Source of the DNA: Comamonas testosteroni
GTDB lineage: Bacteria; Pseudomonadota; Gammaproteobacteria; Burkholderiales; Burkholderiaceae_C
Reading direction: 5' to 3'
Assembly: GCF_014076415.1 (NCBI RefSeq)
Contig: NZ_CP043568.1
Span: 3,596,001 to 3,660,000 of the forward strand
Length of the DNA: 64,000 nucleotides
Position numbers and translations under genes: made by a program
Shown: one piece after another, positions 4,564-21,000 of the stretch
How the letters are laid out: each line of letters begins with the position of its first letter
Numbering within the stretch: the stretch's first letter is position 1
Notes under the pieces: generated by a model
The model's database searches: none
What the model was told of the DNA's origin: nothing
The model's input: only the letters and a program-made list of their open reading frames with translations

Positions 4564-6942
4564 TTACGCGACCACAGCCTTGGTCGTACCCTTTTCACCG
4601 TCGACCAGGACGGTGCCGCCATAGATGTGGCGGATCTTGTAGGTCAGCTTGTCGTTGCTGAACATGGAGCCACCATTGGGCTGGTCCTGCACAAACAGCT
4701 CGGGCTCTTCCTGGCCGTCCAGGAAGCCGACCTCCAGCACCGGCAGCACCACAGGGTCAGCGACCGTGCACCAGTCGTTGGCATCCGTCCAATAGCTGAC
4801 GGGGATCACCTCGGGATTGATGGTCTGAACAAAGGTCTTGTCCAGGTTCTGGTTGCGCACGAACAGGTCATAGGCGGTTTCCTGCAGCTCGAACGGCACC
4901 AGGATCGCTGCCGGGCCTGTGGCCAGGCGCTTTGCGCTGCCCGCACGGGTCTGCTTGAGCATGGCCAAGCGATGCGCTGCAAACTCGGCAGCCGTCAGCG
5001 CGCCCGTGAAAAGGTTGTTGTGATCGGCGTGGTAAAGCGCCTTGGCGTCGTAGATCAGGCCGTTGACGCGGAAGAAATCAAACACGAACTCATAGAGCGT
5101 GTTCTTGGCCGCCAGCGCCAGCTCGGTGGGAATGCGGCGCAGCGCCTGGACATCGTCGTTCTTGATCGCTTCCAGCGTCACGTCCTCCGTGCCGCCGCGC
5201 TTGCTCACCGCAAAGGTGGCCTTGTCATCGCCAGGCGAGCCCAGCGGCTGATAAGCGGCACCCTGCGCGACCGCAGGCAGATTGCCATAGCCGCCGATAC
5301 GGATGCGTTCCTGGGTGCGAAAGTCTTTGATCGGCGCGGTCGTGGCCACACGTCGCCATGCGTCCAGGTTGGTCAGGCCTGTGTAGACCGCCTGCATGCG
5401 GCGGGTGATGCTGTCGCCCAGCGCATCGCTCCAGGTGCTGCTGGTGACCGACTCACGCATGACGCCCAGGCTCTCGGCCATGCGGCCCAGATCGCAGTCA
5501 CGGATCTGGCCCGTGACACGGCGGTCGCCCGTGATCTCGATGTAGCACTCGCGCAGCGACTGCACGTTGCGGTGCTCCTTGTGCGTGGGGTCGAAAAACG
5601 CCGTCAGCATCTCGCGGATGGACACGCTGCGGTCTTCCACGTTGATGGAGCCATTACCGAACGCAGGCACACGAACCGTGCCGGACTCCGTCATGCGGGC
5701 AATGTAGTCGCCCTCAGCCTTGATCAGATCACCCACGGCTGCTTCGGTCAGGCGATCAGCGCCAGCGGTAGCCACCTGAGTCAGCAGGCGCTCCTTGGCT
5801 GCCTGCGGGAGCTTGGCGGCATTGATGCGCTCGCGAGCAGCCCCCCGCAGCTCAAACACCTGCAGGTCAGCGCGGGTCAGCGGCGCTTCGTCCGCCTGCG
5901 CCTCGGTCACACGCTGCGTGCCGGGCTCGGGCACCAGCGGGCCGCAAACGGCTTCATGCAGATTGACCACCTCGTCGTCGGTGATCGTGTCCAGTTTGAT
6001 GGCGGCATGCTTCGCCGGGTCTTTGGCCTTGATGGCCTCCAGCATGCGTTGCTTCCACAAAGGCATGGTTTGGCTTCCTTCTTGAGATTCAGGGGGAGAG
6101 GTACTTGGATCGGCAGCGGCTTCGGTAAGACGGTCCAGGCCGCCGCCCGCGCCTGGCTCGACAATCAGGTCCACCGAGTGAACCTTGGTGAACTTCACGG
6201 CTTCGCGCAGGGTCTCGCTGCCGCTGGTACGTTTGCGCGTGCGAGCGTCCGCGTCAATCGACAGGCCCAGGAGACCTTGCATGCCCCGTTTGACGGAGCC
6301 GACCATCTTGGTGACCGTGGAGTCGCTGGGGTCGATGGCTTTAAAGGTTCCGACCAGGCTGCCTGTGTCGGGCGTCTTGCCTTCGACAAAGCGCACGCTG
6401 TAGATGCCGCCGATCAGATTGCGCACGTCCTTGCCCTTGCCTGCGCTGTGATCGGCATCAGACTTGGCAAACACGCGTACGCCCTCAAACATGGGGGCTG
6501 CTTCGCGCAATGCCTGGTCGGGGTAATAGTTGCGGTTGCCGCTGCGGCCCGCACGGATCAGCGTGACTTCAATCGTGCCGTCCTGGGCTTCGCGGAAGGC
6601 TGCGGCTTCCTGAGATTCGCGCACAACTGAAGCAGCGGCGGGATCAGCGGCTGGTGCAGTGCCCACCGGCTGAAACTGTGCAACCACCTCTTCGGCCTCG
6701 GCCAGCACCACGGCGTTTTCTGCGCTGATTGTGTAGGCGTAGCTGTAAAGACGGCCCTTGTACTGCACCACCGCCCGGTCGGGCCAGATACCGCGCATGT
6801 CGACGTAGTAGTCGCTGTTGAGGGTCAGGCGCAGCTTGTCGCGTACCGCCTGGCGCACCAACTCAATCAACTGACCATATTCGGAAGTGACCGCCTCCGT
6901 CAGGCGATCAAAGCCCGTGCCGTGAGGAATGAGCTTGAGCAT
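4564..6942 (-). CDS. prohead protease-scaffold-major capsid polyprotein
   Basis: The 792-residue product joins three parts. Residues 1-120 are a helical and beta region I do not recognise. Residues 122-268 look like a prohead protease: RSGNRNYYPDQALREAAP, SDADHSAGKGKDVRNLIGG with a candidate catalytic His165, and GLLGLSIDADA with candidate Ser228. Residues 290-430 are helical scaffold-like, and 430-792 resemble the Mu gpT-type major head protein (DFFRVNGLIYDAKALYHADH). An internal ATG at 6066 (Met293, MPLWKQRML) has a good AAGGAAG Shine-Dalgarno about 7 nt upstream, so a separate scaffold-capsid chain could also be made. Protease and capsid are usually separate genes in Mu, so the fusion is notable. 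Position and content make the capsid role secure. Confidence 0.85.
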   Translation of the reverse strand: MLKLIPHGTGFDRLTEAVTSEYGQLIELVRQAVRDKLRLTLNSDYYVDMRGIWPDRAVVQYKGRLYSYAYTISAENAVVLAEAEEVVAQFQPVGTAPAADPAAASVVRESQEAAAFREAQDGTIEVTLIRAGRSGNRNYYPDQALREAAPMFEGVRVFAKSDADHSAGKGKDVRNLIGGIYSVRFVEGKTPDTGSLVGTFKAIDPSDSTVTKMVGSVKRGMQGLLGLSIDADARTRKRTSGSETLREAVKFTKVHSVDLIVEPGAGGGLDRLTEAAADPSTSPPESQEGSQTMPLWKQRMLEAIKAKDPAKHAAIKLDTITDDEVVNLHEAVCGPLVPEPGTQRVTEAQADEAPLTRADLQVFELRGAARERINAAKLPQAAKERLLTQVATAGADRLTEAAVGDLIKAEGDYIARMTESGTVRVPAFGNGSINVEDRSVSIREMLTAFFDPTHKEHRNVQSLRECYIEITGDRRVTGQIRDCDLGRMAESLGVMRESVTSSTWSDALGDSITRRMQAVYTGLTNLDAWRRVATTAPIKDFRTQERIRIGGYGNLPAVAQGAAYQPLGSPGDDKATFAVSKRGGTEDVTLEAIKNDDVQALRRIPTELALAAKNTLYEFVFDFFRVNGLIYDAKALYHADHNNLFTGALTAAEFAAHRLAMLKQTRAGSAKRLATGPAAILVPFELQETAYDLFVRNQNLDKTFVQTINPEVIPVSYWTDANDWCTVADPVVLPVLEVGFLDGQEEPELFVQDQPNGGSMFSNDKLTYKIRHIYGGTVLVDGEKGTTKAVVA

Positions 6943-6945
6943 GGC

Positions 6946-7155
6946 TTATTTGCCAGTCAGCTTCTGACCGTCCACGGTCACCACGACGATGTGAGTGCCG
7001 TAGTCCTTGAAGGACAGCACTTCATCACCGGAAACCGCGAGGCGCTTTTCTTTGAACTTGTCCTTGCCTTCTGCAGGCTCCAGGACGATGCGCTGGACGC
7101 GCTTTGCGGCATCAGCTGCCGTCAGCTTGGTTTCTTTGGTCTCGGATTCGGACAT
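6946..7155 (-). CDS. small head-region protein
   Basis: A 69-residue acidic protein begins MSESETKETKLTAADAA; a Met four residues upstream (7167) is an alternative. The second half, VSGDEVLSFKDYGTHIVVVTVDGQKLTGK, looks like a small beta-barrel. It is 3 nt from the polyprotein start. Function is unknown; small proteins at this place can be head decoration or assembly factors. Confidence 0.6.
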   Translation of the reverse strand: MSESETKETKLTAADAAKRVQRIVLEPAEGKDKFKEKRLAVSGDEVLSFKDYGTHIVVVTVDGQKLTGK

Positions 7156-7223
7156 GGGCCACTCCATCGAAGATGAGCCGCAGGGTGCGGCATTGCGATG
7201 GAGTGACTGTGCCTAGCGCGGCA

Positions 7224-7252
7224 CAAATAAATAAGGCCCGCAAATGCTGGCC
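7224..7252 (-). terminator. Terminator at end of membrane-pair cargo
   Basis: The minus strand reads GGCCAGCATTTGCGGGCC (7252 to 7235) followed by TTATTTATTT. The stem touches the stop codon of the membrane protein gene. The same 18 nt occur after the OLD-like ATPase gene at 15098-15115. It separates the cargo from the capsid genes downstream in the same orientation. Confidence 0.75.
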
Positions 7253-7795
7253 TCAATCTGAATCAACTGGCTTTTTATCAGCTCGCTGGGATAAAGCTGT
7301 CAATGACTCAAGAGCTTTACTTTGCTGATCCTCATTGTCCGAGAATGTCTTAATAACGCTCGCAGGAACTAAAGTGAGTACGACAGTCCAAATCTGCCAG
7401 AGCGTAAGAGACACTAGAACTGCATAAGAAAAACCTCTCACCCACTCTCGATCAATATCAATTGGATAGCGCTTTGCGATCGGTGCCACAATGCCAATCG
7501 CCAAAATAATTCCGAGAATCGATGTCGAATTTACAACGGGTGTAAATAGCTGTCCAAGACCAGTGTCTTTTGGATCGCTTTTGTCTTTTGATCTTCGCAG
7601 CGAGAGCTTCAATCTCTCTGGGTAGATGATTGCAAGCCACGCACCAATAACCGCGAAAATAATTGCAGCCGTAGTGCGGAGTGCTTCAAACATTGGCCAT
7701 TGTTCAGCAAAAGGCACAAGCCGACCAAACCACCCTCCGGCAGCGACAGCTACCACAGCAAAGGTCCAGCTAAGTATCTGCAACCGCACAAGCAT
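7253..7795 (-). CDS. four-helix membrane protein of an unrecognised two-gene cargo
   Basis: This 180-residue protein has hydrophobic stretches near residues 7-25, 41-59, 90-110 and 122-146. A basic loop (SLRRSKDKSD) lies between the second and third, and a polar tail follows (about 147-180). An AAGGAAA ribosome site precedes the ATG, and only 5 nt separate it from the end of the upstream gene, so the two are co-transcribed. It lies in the late operon but has lower GC than the phage genes. I do not recognise a family. By analogy with many defence systems a small multi-pass protein could be a membrane-acting effector, but that is inference only. Confidence 0.8.
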   Translation of the reverse strand: MLVRLQILSWTFAVVAVAAGGWFGRLVPFAEQWPMFEALRTTAAIIFAVIGAWLAIIYPERLKLSLRRSKDKSDPKDTGLGQLFTPVVNSTSILGIILAIGIVAPIAKRYPIDIDREWVRGFSYAVLVSLTLWQIWTVVLTLVPASVIKTFSDNEDQQSKALESLTALSQRADKKPVDSD

Positions 7796-7800
7796 TTTCC

Positions 7801-8823
7801 TTAATTTTCGAGCAGCTTCAAAAGCTGTCCACGATACCTTTCCAGCTCATGGAGCAAACTTTCCGGCTTCACAATTTCAATATTGTTACGAACGACATCT
7901 AGCTCCAACGTATCTCTGGCATACGATCGTCCTAGCCAGTGAGTTTTACTATCCCCTCGAAGGACAAAACCGTAATCTGAAAGTTCATCATCATCTTCTG
8001 ACCATTGCTGAACGATCTCCTGTACTTGACCCGCATCCAGTCCTGACACTTCTAATTCATAGTAAATAGCTACCTCTTGCTCCACAGTTTTGTACTTCGT
8101 CAGATTCACATCTTCCAACATCTTCTGCCACAGAGCTCTCTTTGGACGATGCTTAAGTTGCAACGATGCCTTTTTCTTAATCTTTCGAATTTCTGGTGCA
8201 TGCGCGACCACATAGTCAATAGGGCCGGGCTTTTTAAAAATTTCAGTCTTAAACGATGGTCTGAAGCCTCCCAGCTCATCAGCAGCAGACTTCCTGTACC
8301 CAACTACAGCAATCGATCCGGCCTCGTCGGGCTCCCCCAGAACTACGTGTGGTCCAAAACTATTGAGAAAACCGCTGATGAACTTACCCATTTCGTAGAC
8401 ACCAGCCATGGGGTGCTGAAAACGAATAGTGGCCATCAGGTTCTCTGCAGGCAGTAGCCAAAAGTAGGTCGCATGGCCTGGAATATGCCCCTCCTCAACC
8501 TCAGTCTCTGAAACGTCAGCAGCGCCTACAGCAGCGAACCCATCGATTGCAACAACCTTACCATCTGTATTTGCAGATTCGTTCCACAAAGTAAGAAGCC
8601 AAGAATTTTTGCCTGGAGACGCATCTACAAAATAAGCAGGGTACGCAACGGAAGCATCGGTCTTTCCATGAGTTCTCGTGTGGGCTAAAGATCGACCGGT
8701 GGACCATGCCGAGATGTGCCTTAGCGTGTCCTCAAGCGTTCCAAACTCAGCTTGGCGCTTTTTTCCGTACGGGTAGTAGCCGCACGAGCTAATTTTGTAA
8801 AACGTGATCTTTGCCTCTTCCAT
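7801..8823 (-). CDS. unrecognised 340-residue soluble cargo protein
   Basis: The protein begins MEEAKITFYKISSCGYYPYG and has no signal peptide or membrane segment. The N-terminal 150 residues look beta-rich with conserved-looking aromatic positions (SWLLTLWNES, PGHATYFWLLPAENLMATIRF). A basic patch KIRKIKKKASLQLKHRPKRA-like lies near 225-245, and the last 80 residues are helical and acidic (VQQWSEDDDEL). It is the first gene of a pair with the membrane protein. An inverted repeat covers its leader (8826-8853). No catalytic motif is obvious to me. The placement, low GC and own terminator mark it as a moron; a sensor or regulator for the membrane partner is a reasonable hypothesis, not a finding. 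Confidence 0.8.
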   Translation of the reverse strand: MEEAKITFYKISSCGYYPYGKKRQAEFGTLEDTLRHISAWSTGRSLAHTRTHGKTDASVAYPAYFVDASPGKNSWLLTLWNESANTDGKVVAIDGFAAVGAADVSETEVEEGHIPGHATYFWLLPAENLMATIRFQHPMAGVYEMGKFISGFLNSFGPHVVLGEPDEAGSIAVVGYRKSAADELGGFRPSFKTEIFKKPGPIDYVVAHAPEIRKIKKKASLQLKHRPKRALWQKMLEDVNLTKYKTVEQEVAIYYELEVSGLDAGQVQEIVQQWSEDDDELSDYGFVLRGDSKTHWLGRSYARDTLELDVVRNNIEIVKPESLLHELERYRGQLLKLLEN

Positions 8824-8825
8824 CT

Positions 8826-8853
8826 ACCTAACCTCTGGTCTATGTCGTTAGGT
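8826..8853. promoter_or_regulatory. inverted repeat in leader of cargo pair
   Basis: ACCTAAC at 8826-8832 and GTTAGGT at 8847-8853 form a perfect 7-bp inverted repeat with a 14-nt spacer, immediately before the ATG at 8823 and including its ribosome-binding region. It could be a protein operator or an RNA hairpin that limits translation. No separate strong promoter was assigned in 8854-8971. Confidence 0.45.
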
Positions 8854-8971
8854 GGATTACATCACGATACAAGCATTGCTTTAAACAACCTTTAAATGGG
8901 CGATAGCTGAGCCGATTCAGACTGCCGTGTATCAGCTTATGGATTTTGTGTTTAAAGCTCCACAGGCCGGC

Positions 8972-9928
8972 CTATTCAATGCGCCTTCCCCCAATCTTCG
9001 CCGCCTGATCAAGCGCAGCCTTGCGCCCATCCAACTGCAGCTCACGTTCAGTGAATGGCTTGGCCCCTGGGGTCATCACCCGCCAGCTCTTCATCCAGGG
9101 GATGGAAATACACCCGCAGTGGATGATCTGCTCCACGGGAGCCCTGGGATCATGCGGGCACTGCATCTTGTCGATGCCACCGCCAGGATTGGGCACCTTG
9201 AAAGGCTTGCTGGCTTCCACGACCTGACCGTCGATGATGTCGTGATTCCAGCGGCTGTGGATCTTGCCGCTGCGCCGCCACTGTTTGCCCAGGCCAGGTA
9301 CGAGAGGCTCTGCCTGTTGCAAGCGTTCATTGGAAGCCACGGCAAATGCCCGGCTGACTTCCGTGCGAACAATAGTCGCCGCACGCTTGGGTGACTCGGC
9401 CCCGAGAATCTTCTGCACCGCCTGGATGGCTTGGTAAGGCGTCTGCGCCCCAATAGTGGTCTGGCCCAATTGCTGACCGATCTTGCGAGCCGCTTCGTTG
9501 CCCACGTCCTTGAGCCGCAGGGAGCCAAAGGCCTTCATCTGCTTGAGCACGCCCACATCGAGCTGGGCCAGTCGCAGCTCCACGCGGTGGCCAATGATGG
9601 CCAGGGGCTTGTCTACGAAATCCTCCCCCAGGGTCCAGGCATCCTGCATGCGCATTTCAAATAAGGCACCGGCACGGCTGGTGGCTCCGGCCAGGACATC
9701 CTCGATCTGACCCAATAAGCGCGAGAGCTGTAGCTGCTGCCAATCGGCAGGCAAGCCTGCCAGCGTGACCAGGATCTGATCGCGGGCCTCTTTGAGCAGC
9801 AGCAGAACCTGAGTTTCTCCAGCCAGGAGCAGTTGGGCGCGCTCGCGCAAGCGCCGGGCCAGCTCAGCCTCAAATGCTTTATCTGGCTTTTGACCCAGCT
9901 CCTGCTCGCTTCTGGCTTTCTTAACCAT
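8972..9928 (-). CDS. phage minor head protein, Mu F-like (SPP1 gp7 family)
   Basis: This 318-residue protein begins MVKKARSEQELGQKPDKAF. The C-terminal half carries the family features: RTEVSRAFAVASNERLQQA, then KQWRRSGKIHSRWNHDIIDGQ, PHDPRAPVEQIIHCGC with paired Cys/His, and CISIPW. These proteins act in early head assembly at the portal. It overlaps the portal gene by 8 nt. The cargo pair begins 148 nt downstream. Confidence 0.85.
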   Translation of the reverse strand: MVKKARSEQELGQKPDKAFEAELARRLRERAQLLLAGETQVLLLLKEARDQILVTLAGLPADWQQLQLSRLLGQIEDVLAGATSRAGALFEMRMQDAWTLGEDFVDKPLAIIGHRVELRLAQLDVGVLKQMKAFGSLRLKDVGNEAARKIGQQLGQTTIGAQTPYQAIQAVQKILGAESPKRAATIVRTEVSRAFAVASNERLQQAEPLVPGLGKQWRRSGKIHSRWNHDIIDGQVVEASKPFKVPNPGGGIDKMQCPHDPRAPVEQIIHCGCISIPWMKSWRVMTPGAKPFTERELQLDGRKAALDQAAKIGGRRIE

Positions 9929-15092: not shown

Positions 15093-15118
15093 AAAAAGGC
15101 CCGCAAATGCTGGCCTTA
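15093..15118 (-). terminator. Terminator after OLD-like ATPase gene
   Basis: The minus strand carries GGCCAGCATTTGCGGGCC (15115 to 15098) followed by TTTTTCG. It lies 67 nt beyond the ATPase stop and just upstream of the lysozyme start, so it would shield the late operon from transcription out of the repressor/ATPase side. The 18-nt stem-loop is identical to the one at 7235-7252. Confidence 0.8.
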
Positions 15119-15182
15119 AAGATTTAAGAGACAAGATGATATCAGCGTAGGTAACCTAAATCTATCACCATGAACATAATAT

Positions 15183-16748
15183 TTAATCTCTAATAACAGA
15201 AAAATGCTGTAATGATCTTGTTACCAATTGCTTGATGTCGTCAGAATGACGCTGATATTCTGCTGATAATTTAAATACGTCGTAACAGCGATTGCGAGCA
15301 TCTTTTTTATCAGAAGCCAATCCAAGATTAATCATTTTTTCAAATAGAAAATGATGATCCTCATACTGTAACGAGGAAGATAGCTCTTCATTTGGATGGC
15401 TTGATAGATAGGAACGCACGAGGAATTTTTCTGGTTTATCGTGAGGATAAATGAATCCAGCATACTCATCATTATTATTCATATAATATGCGTAATTTTC
15501 ATCCTCAGCATAATCACCATCCATAACAGCACAATAGCCAATTTTATTTCTTAAGTGACTAAAGTTTTTTTTATGTCGTTCATAATCAACCTTAACTTCA
15601 TTAATTGGCCCAGATGGCACGATATTAATTAATCTAGAAATATGTGGTTCAGTATTTGACAGATCAATTAACTGTTGAGATATCAAAAATTGTGCAAGAT
15701 CGTCTTCACAATACAACTGAATAAGAGGGTGCGAAATGGAATCCATCTTACTAGCTGCTGCTTGAATAGAAATCTCAGGGGTGCACTTCCACTGCCCATT
15801 ATTACTTTCAATAAAGCGACGCGAGCACCCATCCACTGCTGAAAGTGCCGTTGGCGAATGAGTAGTAAATATAACCTGTTTCTTGTCACGCCAAGAAACC
15901 ATATAAACAATATCTATTAATTTTCTTAAAACTGCAGGATGAATACCAGCTTCAATTTCCTCAATTAAAATTAAAGTGTTTTTTGGACTCTCAATTAAAT
16001 CTTTAAGTATGTATATAACTGCCTCCTCTCCGGAAGCAGCGTTATATGTCGAGTACGTTGCTGTATTTCTATTAATAATAAAACAGCGTCTATTTAAGTG
16101 ATTTGCTGCCTCTGATATACTTGCAACAGGAGTACTAAATATGTACCCAAATGCTTTTGCAATATCAACATCCAAAGCTAAAACTTGGGCACCATTAGCC
16201 TTCTTGAATAGATAATCAGAAAATGCACGCGCTGGTAGCAATCTCTCCAAATCTATAAGACGAACTTCTTTTTTTCTTATCTTTGCATTCGTGCGATTTT
16301 TATCAGAACTTCTCTTGGCGAGTCCACTCCATGCGCGAGAAGTGTGAAGTCTCTTGCCTGTCCCATCGCGATCTTTTGTGCCTTCACGCCACTCCATCTT
16401 GTACTCATAGTCAGATTGAACAGTTTCATGTGACGTAAAAGAAAGAACATCTGCCCACGTATGTTCTCGCATTCCAACAGCAGTCGATTTCGCATCCAGT
16501 CGCATAAATTTTTCATGACTACATGCAAGAAGTAATAGCAAACTTGTTTTCCCCGACCGATTAGAACCTGCAATTGCGGTTACCGGACTGGAAAATCCAA
16601 CTTCTAAATCAACAATATGGCGGAATTGAGTGATATGGATTTTCTTTACAAAATTTGAATAACTTTGTCCTGAATCAACAAATATAGATACATCGCAATT
16701 CTCAATTTTTTTCTTAATTTCGAATAAATTCTGAATTTCGAGAGCCAC
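15183..16748 (-). CDS. solitary OLD-like AAA ATPase with TOPRIM-like C-terminus
   Basis: This 521-residue protein has an ABC/SMC-like ATPase core: Walker A GSNRSGKT (61-68), signature-like ASGEEA (238-243), Walker B LILIEEIEAG (259-268) and a switch His in FTTHSP (294-299). C-terminal LYCEDD (345-350) and VMDGDY (408-413) match the Glu and DxD elements of a TOPRIM nuclease as in OLD-family proteins. Start is GTG with GGAGGGG upstream. No helicase partner is adjacent, which suggests a class 1 (solo) type. It lies 320 nt downstream of the repressor on the same strand and is much richer in A+T than the phage genes. A superinfection-exclusion or defence role is inferred. Confidence 0.8.
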   Translation of the reverse strand: MALEIQNLFEIKKKIENCDVSIFVDSGQSYSNFVKKIHITQFRHIVDLEVGFSSPVTAIAGSNRSGKTSLLLLLACSHEKFMRLDAKSTAVGMREHTWADVLSFTSHETVQSDYEYKMEWREGTKDRDGTGKRLHTSRAWSGLAKRSSDKNRTNAKIRKKEVRLIDLERLLPARAFSDYLFKKANGAQVLALDVDIAKAFGYIFSTPVASISEAANHLNRRCFIINRNTATYSTYNAASGEEAVIYILKDLIESPKNTLILIEEIEAGIHPAVLRKLIDIVYMVSWRDKKQVIFTTHSPTALSAVDGCSRRFIESNNGQWKCTPEISIQAAASKMDSISHPLIQLYCEDDLAQFLISQQLIDLSNTEPHISRLINIVPSGPINEVKVDYERHKKNFSHLRNKIGYCAVMDGDYAEDENYAYYMNNNDEYAGFIYPHDKPEKFLVRSYLSSHPNEELSSSLQYEDHHFLFEKMINLGLASDKKDARNRCYDVFKLSAEYQRHSDDIKQLVTRSLQHFSVIRD

Positions 16749-17071: not shown

Positions 17072-17416
17072 CTAGGCTGCCTTGTCTCTTGGGACGATTG
17101 GCTTTGCAGCTGCAGAAGCAGCAGCATCAATGATTCTTTTTCCCTCTTCACTCATCTGGTCGTAGTTCTCCAGCAAAAAGCGTTGACGTGGAGACAGTGC
17201 AGGCGCATCTGCAGCCTGTTGATTTATTTGACCGGTGAGCACGTAAAGCACATCTACCCCAACAGCGGCGAGTGCAGATAACTGCACTGCGGTCGGTGAG
17301 GAAACGCCTTTCTCCCAATCAATCAGCGTTCGCTTGCTCACACCGGCGGTTTCCGCGAACACCGGCTGCGTGAGTCCAAGCCTCTCTCGCTCACTCTTTA
17401 GCCGTTCATTGATCAC
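17072..17416 (-). CDS. XRE-family phage repressor (c-like)
   Basis: The protein has an N-terminal helix-turn-helix (RLKSERERLGLTQPVFAET and VSKRTLIDWEKG, first 45 residues) and a helical C-terminus with LSPRQRFLLENYDQMSEEG. I prefer the GTG start at 17416 because AAAGGTGAGG lies 8 nt upstream; ATG codons at 17437 and 17443 have no ribosome site and would place the start inside the early promoter. It is divergent from the early operon, with an operator-like palindrome between, as expected for the lysogeny repressor. Whether it resembles Mu c in mechanism cannot be told. Confidence 0.85.
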   Translation of the reverse strand: MINERLKSERERLGLTQPVFAETAGVSKRTLIDWEKGVSSPTAVQLSALAAVGVDVLYVLTGQINQQAADAPALSPRQRFLLENYDQMSEEGKRIIDAAASAAAKPIVPRDKAA

Positions 17417-17437
17417 GAAAATATCCTCACCTTTCAT

Positions 17438-17466
17438 TTGCATAGTGCAAATATCTGCACCATAAT
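17438..17466 (+). promoter_or_regulatory. early promoter with operator palindrome in its spacer
   Basis: TTGCAT (17438-17443) and CATAAT (17461-17466) are separated by exactly 17 nt, a good sigma-70 promoter pointing to the Ner-like gene. The spacer contains GTGCAAATATCTGCAC (17445-17460), a 16-bp palindrome with one mismatched pair. A repressor bound here would block early transcription directly. A second hairpin, AGCGCCG/CGGCGCT (17479-17501), lies in the predicted early leader. Confidence 0.65.
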
Positions 17467-18822: not shown

Positions 18823-21000
18823 ATGTGGCTCACCTCCAAGCATCTGGCTGGTCTTGATGGCTTGCCTTCTTCTGAAAAAGGTACTCGACTTTGGCTGCAA
18901 CGCCACGGCGTACCTAGCCGTCCACGCAATGCCAGCGGAGGCGGTCTTGAATACGACTGCTCAAAGCTGCCCGAGGCTGCTCGTGCAGCCTTGAGCGCAA
19001 AACAGATCGCAGAGGCAGGCTCCAAAGCTCTGGCCGTGGTGGACACCCCTCCAGTCCGCAGCTTTTTGCCACCTGCGTCTACGGTCAGCAACGCCATCAG
19101 CCGTGTGCCCAGCCAGGCAGAAAAAGATGTGGCCGACGCCCGCGTGCGCTTGGTCAACCTGGTGCTTGAGCTAGTGCCCCTGCATGGCCTGCGCCGAGCA
19201 TGCCAGTTGCTGGCCGCGCGCATCATCACAGGCGAAGCTGGAGCCGAGGCACAGAACATTGCACGTCAAGCGAACCAACGCGCTCGTGGTGGAGAGGTCA
19301 GTGCCCGTTCACTGGAGCGCTGGGTGGGCATGCATCGCAGCAACGGCTGGTTTGGACTCTTGCCCGCTGCTTCACAGTCCGGATCGACACCACAAGTTGA
19401 TGACGATGTGGCCGCCGTGCTGGGTTTGTTCCACAGCAAGGACCACCGCTTTCGCAAGTTGAGCGGCGCTGCCAAAGAAGTCACCCGCATGCTGGGCCGC
19501 GATTTCGATGAATGGCGCAAGCTGTACCACCGCGCCCGGCGCGTTCTGGACAAGCTGGGGCAGTCTGCAGAGGCCAGTGTCGCCCTCATCAAGTCTCGCC
19601 ATACCGGCGCGCAGCGCGACACCAAGCTGCCGTTTAAACGCCGCGATACCTCCATGTTGGCTTTTGCTGATGTGTTCGTGATCGACGGTCACACCTTTAA
19701 AGCCAAGGTTCGCCACCCGGACCATGGTGCACCCTTCGCGCCTGAGCTGACAGTGGTGCTGGATGCCGCGACCCGACTGATCGTGGGCTGGTCAGTCAAT
19801 CTGTCCGAGAACGTGATCGCGGTGGGCGATGCCCTGCGCCATGCAGTGGGCCAATACGGCATTCCGGCCATTCTTTATGGTGACAACGGCGCTGGTGAAA
19901 CCGCCAAGGCCATGGACTGCCCGATCGATGGTATCTGTGCGCGCCTAGGCATCGATCACCGCCTGGGCCTGCCCGGCAAGCCGCAAGGTCACGGAATCAT
20001 TGAGCGCAGTTGGCAGACCCATGCCATCAATGCAGCCCGCAAGTTCGGGAGCTTTCAGGGCGGCGATGTGGATGCAGGGACCTTCCGCAAGGTAGCAGCA
20101 GTCCTGGCCAAGGAGCAACGCGCCATCAAGCGTTCGGAGCAAACCGGAGAGGTCATCGCGCTCACTCCCAAGGCTCCGACCTGGAAGCAGTTCGTCGACG
20201 GCATCGAAGTGATGGTCCACGAATACAACACGCAGCACCGCCATCGTGGTCTGCCCAAGCGCACAGACGGCAAGCACCCCACGCCCATGGAAGCGTTTGA
20301 CGCCTGCTTTGACCCAGCGCTGCAGGAGAAGCCTTCTGAGCTGGAGTTGCGCACCTTGTTCATGCCGAGCGTGATCCGCACCGCCAAGCGCGGTCAGGTG
20401 CAGTTCTTCAATCAGTTCTACCAGGCACCCGACCTGATGCGCCGCGATATCGATGGCCGCGAAGTCAGCGTGCGCTACGACATTCACAACCCGAACTATG
20501 TATTGATTTACACGCTGGGCGGTGAGTTCGTCTGCGAGGCGCAGTGGGATGCCAACCGCATCGACTACTTCCCCAAGCCGGTCATTCAGATGGCCCGCGA
20601 AAAGCGCGTGGCCCAGGCCGTCAAGCGCCGCGAGCTGCAGATCGACACCGCCCTGCGCGAGCTGGGTCCAGCCATGGACACCACACCTCTTTCCCTGCCG
20701 GAGCCAAGCACCCCATTCGTGACGGTGCCCTCCTTCGTGGAGACACCTGTCTCCGCCATCAACTCTCCCTCCACGGAAGTGGCTGCGCAAGCAGCCGCTA
20801 GCAGGCCTTTCTTTAACGGACCAAGCGAGCGCTACGAATGGCTCATGCGCAACCAAGACCAATGGACCGACGCAGACGGCACATGGCTGCGCAACTACAC
20901 GGCATCAGAGAGCTATGCAGATCTACGCGACTACTACGAGGGGCGGGGATTGGGATGGAACGACGCGGGCAATGAGCCCGGTTTGAAGAGTGCTCTGTGA
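18823..21000 (+). CDS. MuA-like DDE transposase
   Basis: The 725-residue protein has an N-terminal Mu-type DNA-binding region (MWLTSKHLAGLDGLPSSEKG), further site-specific binding helices, and an rve/DDE core. Candidate catalytic residues are the Asp in VFVIDGHTFKA (about 288), the Asp in LYGDNGAGE (about 353) and the Glu in GHGIIERSW (about 394). A beta-barrel Mu-C-like domain follows (LRTLFMPSVIRTAKRGQVQF). It joins phage ends to target DNA in integration and replicative transposition. Likely binding sites are the 22-bp-phased repeats near 29.8 kb. Confidence 0.95.
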   Translation: MWLTSKHLAGLDGLPSSEKGTRLWLQRHGVPSRPRNASGGGLEYDCSKLPEAARAALSAKQIAEAGSKALAVVDTPPVRSFLPPASTVSNAISRVPSQAEKDVADARVRLVNLVLELVPLHGLRRACQLLAARIITGEAGAEAQNIARQANQRARGGEVSARSLERWVGMHRSNGWFGLLPAASQSGSTPQVDDDVAAVLGLFHSKDHRFRKLSGAAKEVTRMLGRDFDEWRKLYHRARRVLDKLGQSAEASVALIKSRHTGAQRDTKLPFKRRDTSMLAFADVFVIDGHTFKAKVRHPDHGAPFAPELTVVLDAATRLIVGWSVNLSENVIAVGDALRHAVGQYGIPAILYGDNGAGETAKAMDCPIDGICARLGIDHRLGLPGKPQGHGIIERSWQTHAINAARKFGSFQGGDVDAGTFRKVAAVLAKEQRAIKRSEQTGEVIALTPKAPTWKQFVDGIEVMVHEYNTQHRHRGLPKRTDGKHPTPMEAFDACFDPALQEKPSELELRTLFMPSVIRTAKRGQVQFFNQFYQAPDLMRRDIDGREVSVRYDIHNPNYVLIYTLGGEFVCEAQWDANRIDYFPKPVIQMAREKRVAQAVKRRELQIDTALRELGPAMDTTPLSLPEPSTPFVTVPSFVETPVSAINSPSTEVAAQAAASRPFFNGPSERYEWLMRNQDQWTDADGTWLRNYTASESYADLRDYYEGRGLGWNDAGNEPGLKSAL

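Follow-up and report, generated by a model that had tools for sequence, protein, structure and literature searches.

We analyzed a pair of genes, here called A and B, in a stretch of 64,000 nucleotides (nt) from Comamonas testosteroni (contig NZ_CP043568.1, positions 3,596,001 to 3,660,000), which is referred to as the window. Both genes are located on the minus strand at 7253..8823, within the late genes of a Mu-like prophage. Gene A (7801..8823, minus) encodes a soluble protein of 340 amino acids (aa) and 38.2 kDa that has no hydrophobic segment over the cut-off. Gene B (7253..7795, minus) follows after only 5 nt, which read GGAAA, and encodes a protein of 180 aa and 20 kDa with an isoelectric point of 9.3 and four predicted membrane helices. 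A MuF-like gene (8972..9928, minus) lies upstream of A; its match to PF04233 (E value 2.7e-4, 22.1 bits) is under the Pfam cut-off of 29.6. On the other side, a 73-aa gene (6946-7167) is found between B and a gene for a 792-aa protein with a capsid domain (4564..6942, minus; PF25209, E 1.6e-41). The GC content of A and B is 0.474 and 0.464, compared to 0.567 for the window and about 0.61 for adjacent 500-base windows. At third codon positions (GC3), it is 0.46 for A and 0.40 for B versus 0.72-0.78 in the MuF, portal, and capsid genes. The two genes, their spacing, their low GC content, and their position between Mu F-like and capsid genes had already been described in an earlier sequence-only reading of this DNA, and all of this was confirmed. 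According to a genome search, the host genome has a single copy of A.

The sequence-only reading had found no recognizable family for either protein and regarded the pair as an undescribed system. Pfam and NCBIfam indeed gave no above-cut-off family for A or B; B showed a weak sub-cut-off match to Phage_holin_2 (E 0.053). The PADLOC and PHROGs collections, on the other hand, do have matches for both proteins. Residues 1-337 of A align to positions 1-337 of 339 of the PADLOC model PDC-M18A (PDLC04494, E 1.3e-117), and residues 1-174 of B align to positions 1-175 of 178 of PDC-M18B (PDLC04499, E 8.2e-78). The two genes thus match the PADLOC candidate PDC-M18 over nearly their full length, adjacent and in the same order. 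In PHROGs, A matches phrog_24371 of unknown function (E 3.8e-50) and B phrog_37654 (E 9e-5). PDC stands for phage defence candidate (PMC11514479), and PDC-M18 is a candidate label only; a literature search by string match alone found the string PDC-M18 in no paper. The PDC-M18A model was also matched by the relatives of A in Ps59, L050, L055, L065, and L213, and the PDC-M18B model by the relatives of B in Ps59 and L213 (L numbers denote our loci). The pair is a family that is already catalogued and therefore not undescribed at the gene-family level.

A and B form a unit across a wide range of genomes and phages. For A, the protein search revealed 45 relatives; for B, it revealed 387, of which 120 were listed. 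Since the search tool detects only relatives with common short exact words, the gap between these numbers may merely reflect the stronger conservation of B. We collected 107 loci of A (42 from genomes, 55 from IMG/VR, Ps59, U3, and eight further loci), 103 of which had a called A. The genome loci span Burkholderiales, Pseudomonas, Vibrio, other gammaproteobacteria, Desulfosarcina, Sulfurimonas, and cyanobacterial and spirochaete bins. B was present at most 900 nt downstream of A in 101 of the 103 loci, and in 77 of 78 once loci with A at least 85% identical were removed. The two loci without a called B (L122 and L123) showed only weak similarity to B (E about 0.01). In the reverse direction, A was present upstream in all 59 IMG/VR loci retrieved with B, many of which are contigs already in the A set. 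In a few copies, one gene is broken: A is split into two frames in L029, L039, and L091, and B in L036. These copies look decayed.

We compared the region between the MuF and capsid genes with that of ten IMG/VR prophages harboring MuF relatives (L126-L132 and L135 with 90-96% identity; L133 and L134 with 76-77%). The DNA of these relatives matches the window up to about 25 bases from the end of the MuF gene. The match resumes at 7257-7253, at the stop codon of B, in the eight close relatives and at 7238 in L133 and L134. In the eight close relatives, the main flank alignments are 78-95% identical. The part that is not common to these prophages (7258..8949) represents a variable cargo slot with the MuF-like gene as backbone on one flank and the capsid-domain gene on the other.

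The content of the slot differs strongly between the relatives. L127 has only 173 nt at this position and is near-empty, while the inserts of L133 and L134 have 1713 and 487 nt. In L135 (7089-8366), the slot encodes a 425-aa protein that matches another defence candidate, PDC-S54, with an E value of 1.3e-133. L128 (7251-8100), L130 (7334-8216), and L131 (7155-8103) carry a helix-turn-helix gene, as called by Pfam in L128, by 49% identity in L130, and by eye in L131, which is followed by a second gene. The latter encodes an IrrE-type metallopeptidase in L128 and L130, the two that were scanned, and these helix-turn-helix and IrrE genes show partial similarity to the PADLOC capP and RmrA models. 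L132 contains other genes, which gave no matches, and the first of them is followed by a 100-base repeat of the MuF end. L126 (7102-7962) and L129 (7078-7995) each encode a single protein (286 and 305 aa); the two proteins are 36% identical to each other and have no PADLOC match, and hydrophobic stretches are seen by eye toward their N-terminal part. It is possible that these two are undescribed exclusion proteins. Morons are optional prophage cargo genes with their own signals, and they are absent or replaced in closely related phages. Such absence or replacement was found for the pair, which supports that it is cargo and not part of the phage structural machinery.

The pair is also found at other positions. 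In phage Ps59, it follows the annotated repressor at a distance of two genes and precedes the holin, and U3 has it at the corresponding place. In Fc02 and Fc22, the sequences that flank the pair in Ps59 (10950 and 12534) are only 38 nt apart, which represents a clean empty site, and JBD25 and AV002 have different DNA of about 0.9 and 0.7 kb there. The part of PMC9936078 that deals with the exclusion genes of Fc02 describes small genes near the repressor and names no RexAB-like pair. A prophage of G485, a genome of the same family, is related to the prophage of the window (terminase 79%, portal 70%, MuF 55% identical) and has the pair one gene behind a repressor homolog, with A 33% and B 59% identical to the proteins of the window. 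The slot between the MuF and capsid genes holds the pair in two more Mu-like lineages, one comprising L049-L054 with L057 and the other L055. In L065, the pair has an intact B and is located in this slot in opposite orientation to the late genes. According to the sequence-only reading, a pair confined to one place in related phages would rather be a structural or regulatory moron. There is no such confinement, since the pair occurs elsewhere in phages and in many bacteria.

These data bear on the view that A and B are a structural or late accessory pair, co-transcribed with the late operon and acting in virion assembly, lysis, or holin-like help. Their place between MuF and capsid genes on the strand of the late genes and the weak Phage_holin_2 match of B fit this view. 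However, close relatives have unrelated genes or almost nothing instead of the pair, the pair is inverted in L065 and repressor-sided in Ps59, U3, and the G485 prophage, and its GC and GC3 values are unlike those of the backbone. We consider a structural or late function extremely improbable.

Location on the repressor side is seen in Ps59, U3, L213, and others and not in the window. The helix-turn-helix gene of the same prophage at 17072-17443 was taken as the prophage repressor, because the annotated repressor of Ps59 is a homolog (48%). A homolog of this repressor-like gene was found 0.3-2.6 kb before A in 11 of 103 loci. HTH_3 was present in only 5 of 124 upstream-neighbor proteins, and repressor adjacency is thus not the rule. 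The pair could act as a modulator of the lysogeny switch, with A binding DNA around phage operators and biasing the decision between lysis and lysogeny, and with B being secondary. Lambda RexA biases the bistable switch in this way without RexB, as described in PMC11077077, and several phages have the pair in the region of their repressor. Against this stand the distance of about 8 kb between the pair and the repressor-like gene in the window, the slot with genes of other kinds in relatives, and the fact that B is nearly always kept together with A. Furthermore, PMC12894663 reports that deletion of a RexAB-type pair in Pseudomonas putida left the activity of the repressor-gene promoter at the wild type level. 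We see a small chance for a role in the lysogeny switch.

Structure prediction pointed to a relationship to the Rex proteins of phage lambda. In a fold search with the predicted structure of A, the top match was RexA, and the model shows the two-domain fold of RexA. A is therefore predicted to adopt the RexA/RdgC fold of a DNA clamp, and it may form a dimer and bind DNA. The viral fold library contains four phage proteins of 277-314 aa that match the A model at 8-10% identity (best A0A8S5S8L2, E 8e-10); these may also be Rex-like. In the AlphaFold2 model, B has four helices (2-24, 29-57, 80-109, and 116-173), and four hydrophobic segments were found at about 1-20, 39-57, 88-106, and 124-145. 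At the sequence level, no relationship to RexA (PF15969 and the PADLOC RexA model) was detected for A or for ten diverged members of its family. No relationship to RexB was detected for B, with a RexB profile that is thin (9 sequences, effective number of sequences 1.4). Lambda RexA and RexB match PADLOC's own RexA and RexB models, which are separate from the PDC-M18 models.

In architecture, the pair resembles lambda RexA/RexB: a soluble protein with RexA as the best fold match is followed directly downstream by a small four-helix membrane protein, and lambda RexB also has four predicted helices (PMC11077077). The repressor-side location in Ps59 and others is comparable to that of rexAB behind cI. 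The proteins differ in length (340 versus 279 aa for A and RexA, 180 versus 144 aa for B and RexB), and the pair of the window is located among late genes and not next to a repressor. A second likeness, by description and not by sequence, is to RexABpp of the P. putida prophage P1 (PP_5643/PP_5644). As reported in PMC12894663, it consists of a RexA-like soluble DNA-binding protein (37.5 kDa with histidine tag, compared to 38.2 kDa for A) and a four-helix membrane partner, both of which are required for defence. RexABpp differs by its location downstream of a CI-like repressor instead of in the MuF-capsid slot. Likewise by description, the Rex-like soluble proteins of the actinobacteriophages CarolAnn (370 aa), Sbash (372 aa), and Toast (337 aa) are close to A in size (PMC11077077), and in CarolAnn, Sbash, and Butters, a RexA-like protein is paired with a membrane protein (PMC12894663). 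The pair is best read as a RexAB-like system that cannot be recognized from its sequence and that occupies a reusable cargo slot of prophages. The design of a soluble and a multi-pass membrane protein, which the sequence-only reading had linked to abortive infection, is supported, and the pair is not part of the structural machinery. Its view of an undescribed system does not hold, considering the PDC-M18 label, the fold and architecture that place the pair beside RexAB, and the tested example from P. putida (PMC12894663).

We propose, with a probability of about 0.7, that the Mu-like prophage carries the pair as cargo for superinfection exclusion or abortive infection of the RexAB type. By analogy to RexAB, the pair would be expressed in the lysogen, and A would recognize the DNA of an incoming phage or complexes of this DNA with protein. 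Having sensed the invader, A would switch on B, a four-helix protein of the inner membrane, which probably oligomerizes and compromises the membrane. Growth of the cell would stop before the invader matures, and other phages would be excluded. We assigned the roles of sensor to A and of effector to B by analogy with the pair of the P. putida prophage P1. According to PMC12894663, the soluble protein of this pair binds DNA non-specifically, and its overproduction led to growth arrest only when the membrane protein was present. The arrest was accompanied by leakiness in a subpopulation, no depolarization was measured, and a two-hybrid test for contact between the two proteins was negative. The same source states that the trigger of RexAB is still unknown. 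The link to RexAB, which is among the longest-known exclusion systems, gives the defence candidate PDC-M18 a concrete and testable mechanism, and a diverse family with conserved sensor and effector makes the RexAB trigger easier to look for.

The roles could also be reversed, with A as the antiviral effector that B holds at the membrane until infection. This was reported in PMC12894663 for gp30/gp31 of mycobacteriophage Butters, a Rex-like pair with the same architecture. The effector of the P. putida pair is the membrane protein (PMC12894663), and our own observations fit either direction. We regard reversed roles as unlikely. A two-gene operon including a small membrane protein would also be compatible with a toxin-antitoxin or addiction pair that stabilizes the prophage, in which A controls a membrane toxin B, and in P. 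putida, activation makes the membrane protein toxic (PMC12894663). However, P. putida tolerated the loss of either RexAB-type gene and also of both, and its soluble protein activates the membrane protein and does not neutralize it (PMC12894663). We consider an addiction function of A and B quite improbable.

The RexAB-like pair is preceded by a conserved leader between the stop codon of the MuF gene and A (8824..8971, minus), which harbors three TTTAAA boxes and CGTGATGTAAT. The boxes of the triple element (8880..8956, minus) are located at 8951, 8891, and 8880, the last two being 11 bp apart. The tandem form is present once in the window and in 0 of 100 shuffles, and the same was observed for the triple form. 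All three boxes are found in six of the ten related prophages, with 60-61 nt between the first and the second. The tandem form is kept in eight of the ten despite different cargo, including the near-empty L127; L132 and L133 have neither the triple nor the tandem form. Only 7 of 103 loci have the tandem form in the 400 nt upstream of A; all seven are in the MuF-capsid slot and six belong to one lineage. Since the element is kept whatever the cargo and is rare upstream of A elsewhere, it marks the slot and not the pair. It may be an operator, part of a promoter, or an exchange site. CGTGATGTAAT (8856..8866, minus) is common to three lineages with the pair in the slot and reads CGTGATTTAAT in L055, with one base different. 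Its sequence suggests a possible extended -10 element of a promoter of the pair itself; a promoter scan flagged no promoter at this site.

The sequence-only reading had assigned the pair its own terminator, and this is partly borne out. A terminator-like hairpin with a U-run does start at the stop codon of B (7222..7255, minus), and the stretch 7260-7195 has a more stable fold than its shuffled versions (z -3.06); a scan with a simple terminator consensus did not flag the hairpin. It is located in the flank common to related prophages with other cargo, even in the near-empty L127, and therefore belongs to the phage backbone.

A joint reading can be put forward tentatively, at somewhat less than even odds. 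The gap between the MuF and capsid genes of this Mu-like lineage would be a dedicated, insulated cargo bay with the conserved triple TTTAAA leader on one side and the terminator on the other, into which different phage-defence modules are swapped. The region behind the repressor would serve as a second bay. On this view, PDC-M18 would form another branch of RexAB-type immunity, unrecognizable by sequence, that moved between both bays and uses an RdgC/CENP-N DNA-clamp fold as infection sensor. CENP-N is the counterpart of Chl4. The slot illustrates a way for Mu-like prophages to exchange defence modules within an operon of virion genes, and it points to more candidates, such as the proteins of L126 and L129 and PDC-S54 in L135.

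The Mu-type transposase of the same prophage is encoded at 18823-21000. A second low-GC cargo gene (15183-16748, minus; 36.5% GC) separates the late genes from the repressor-like gene and encodes an AAA/OLD-like ATPase that matches HEC-04 of PADLOC (E 1e-37). In seven relatives (L126, L128-L132, and L135), homology ends at about 15115-15127, and this place therefore looks like a second variable slot.
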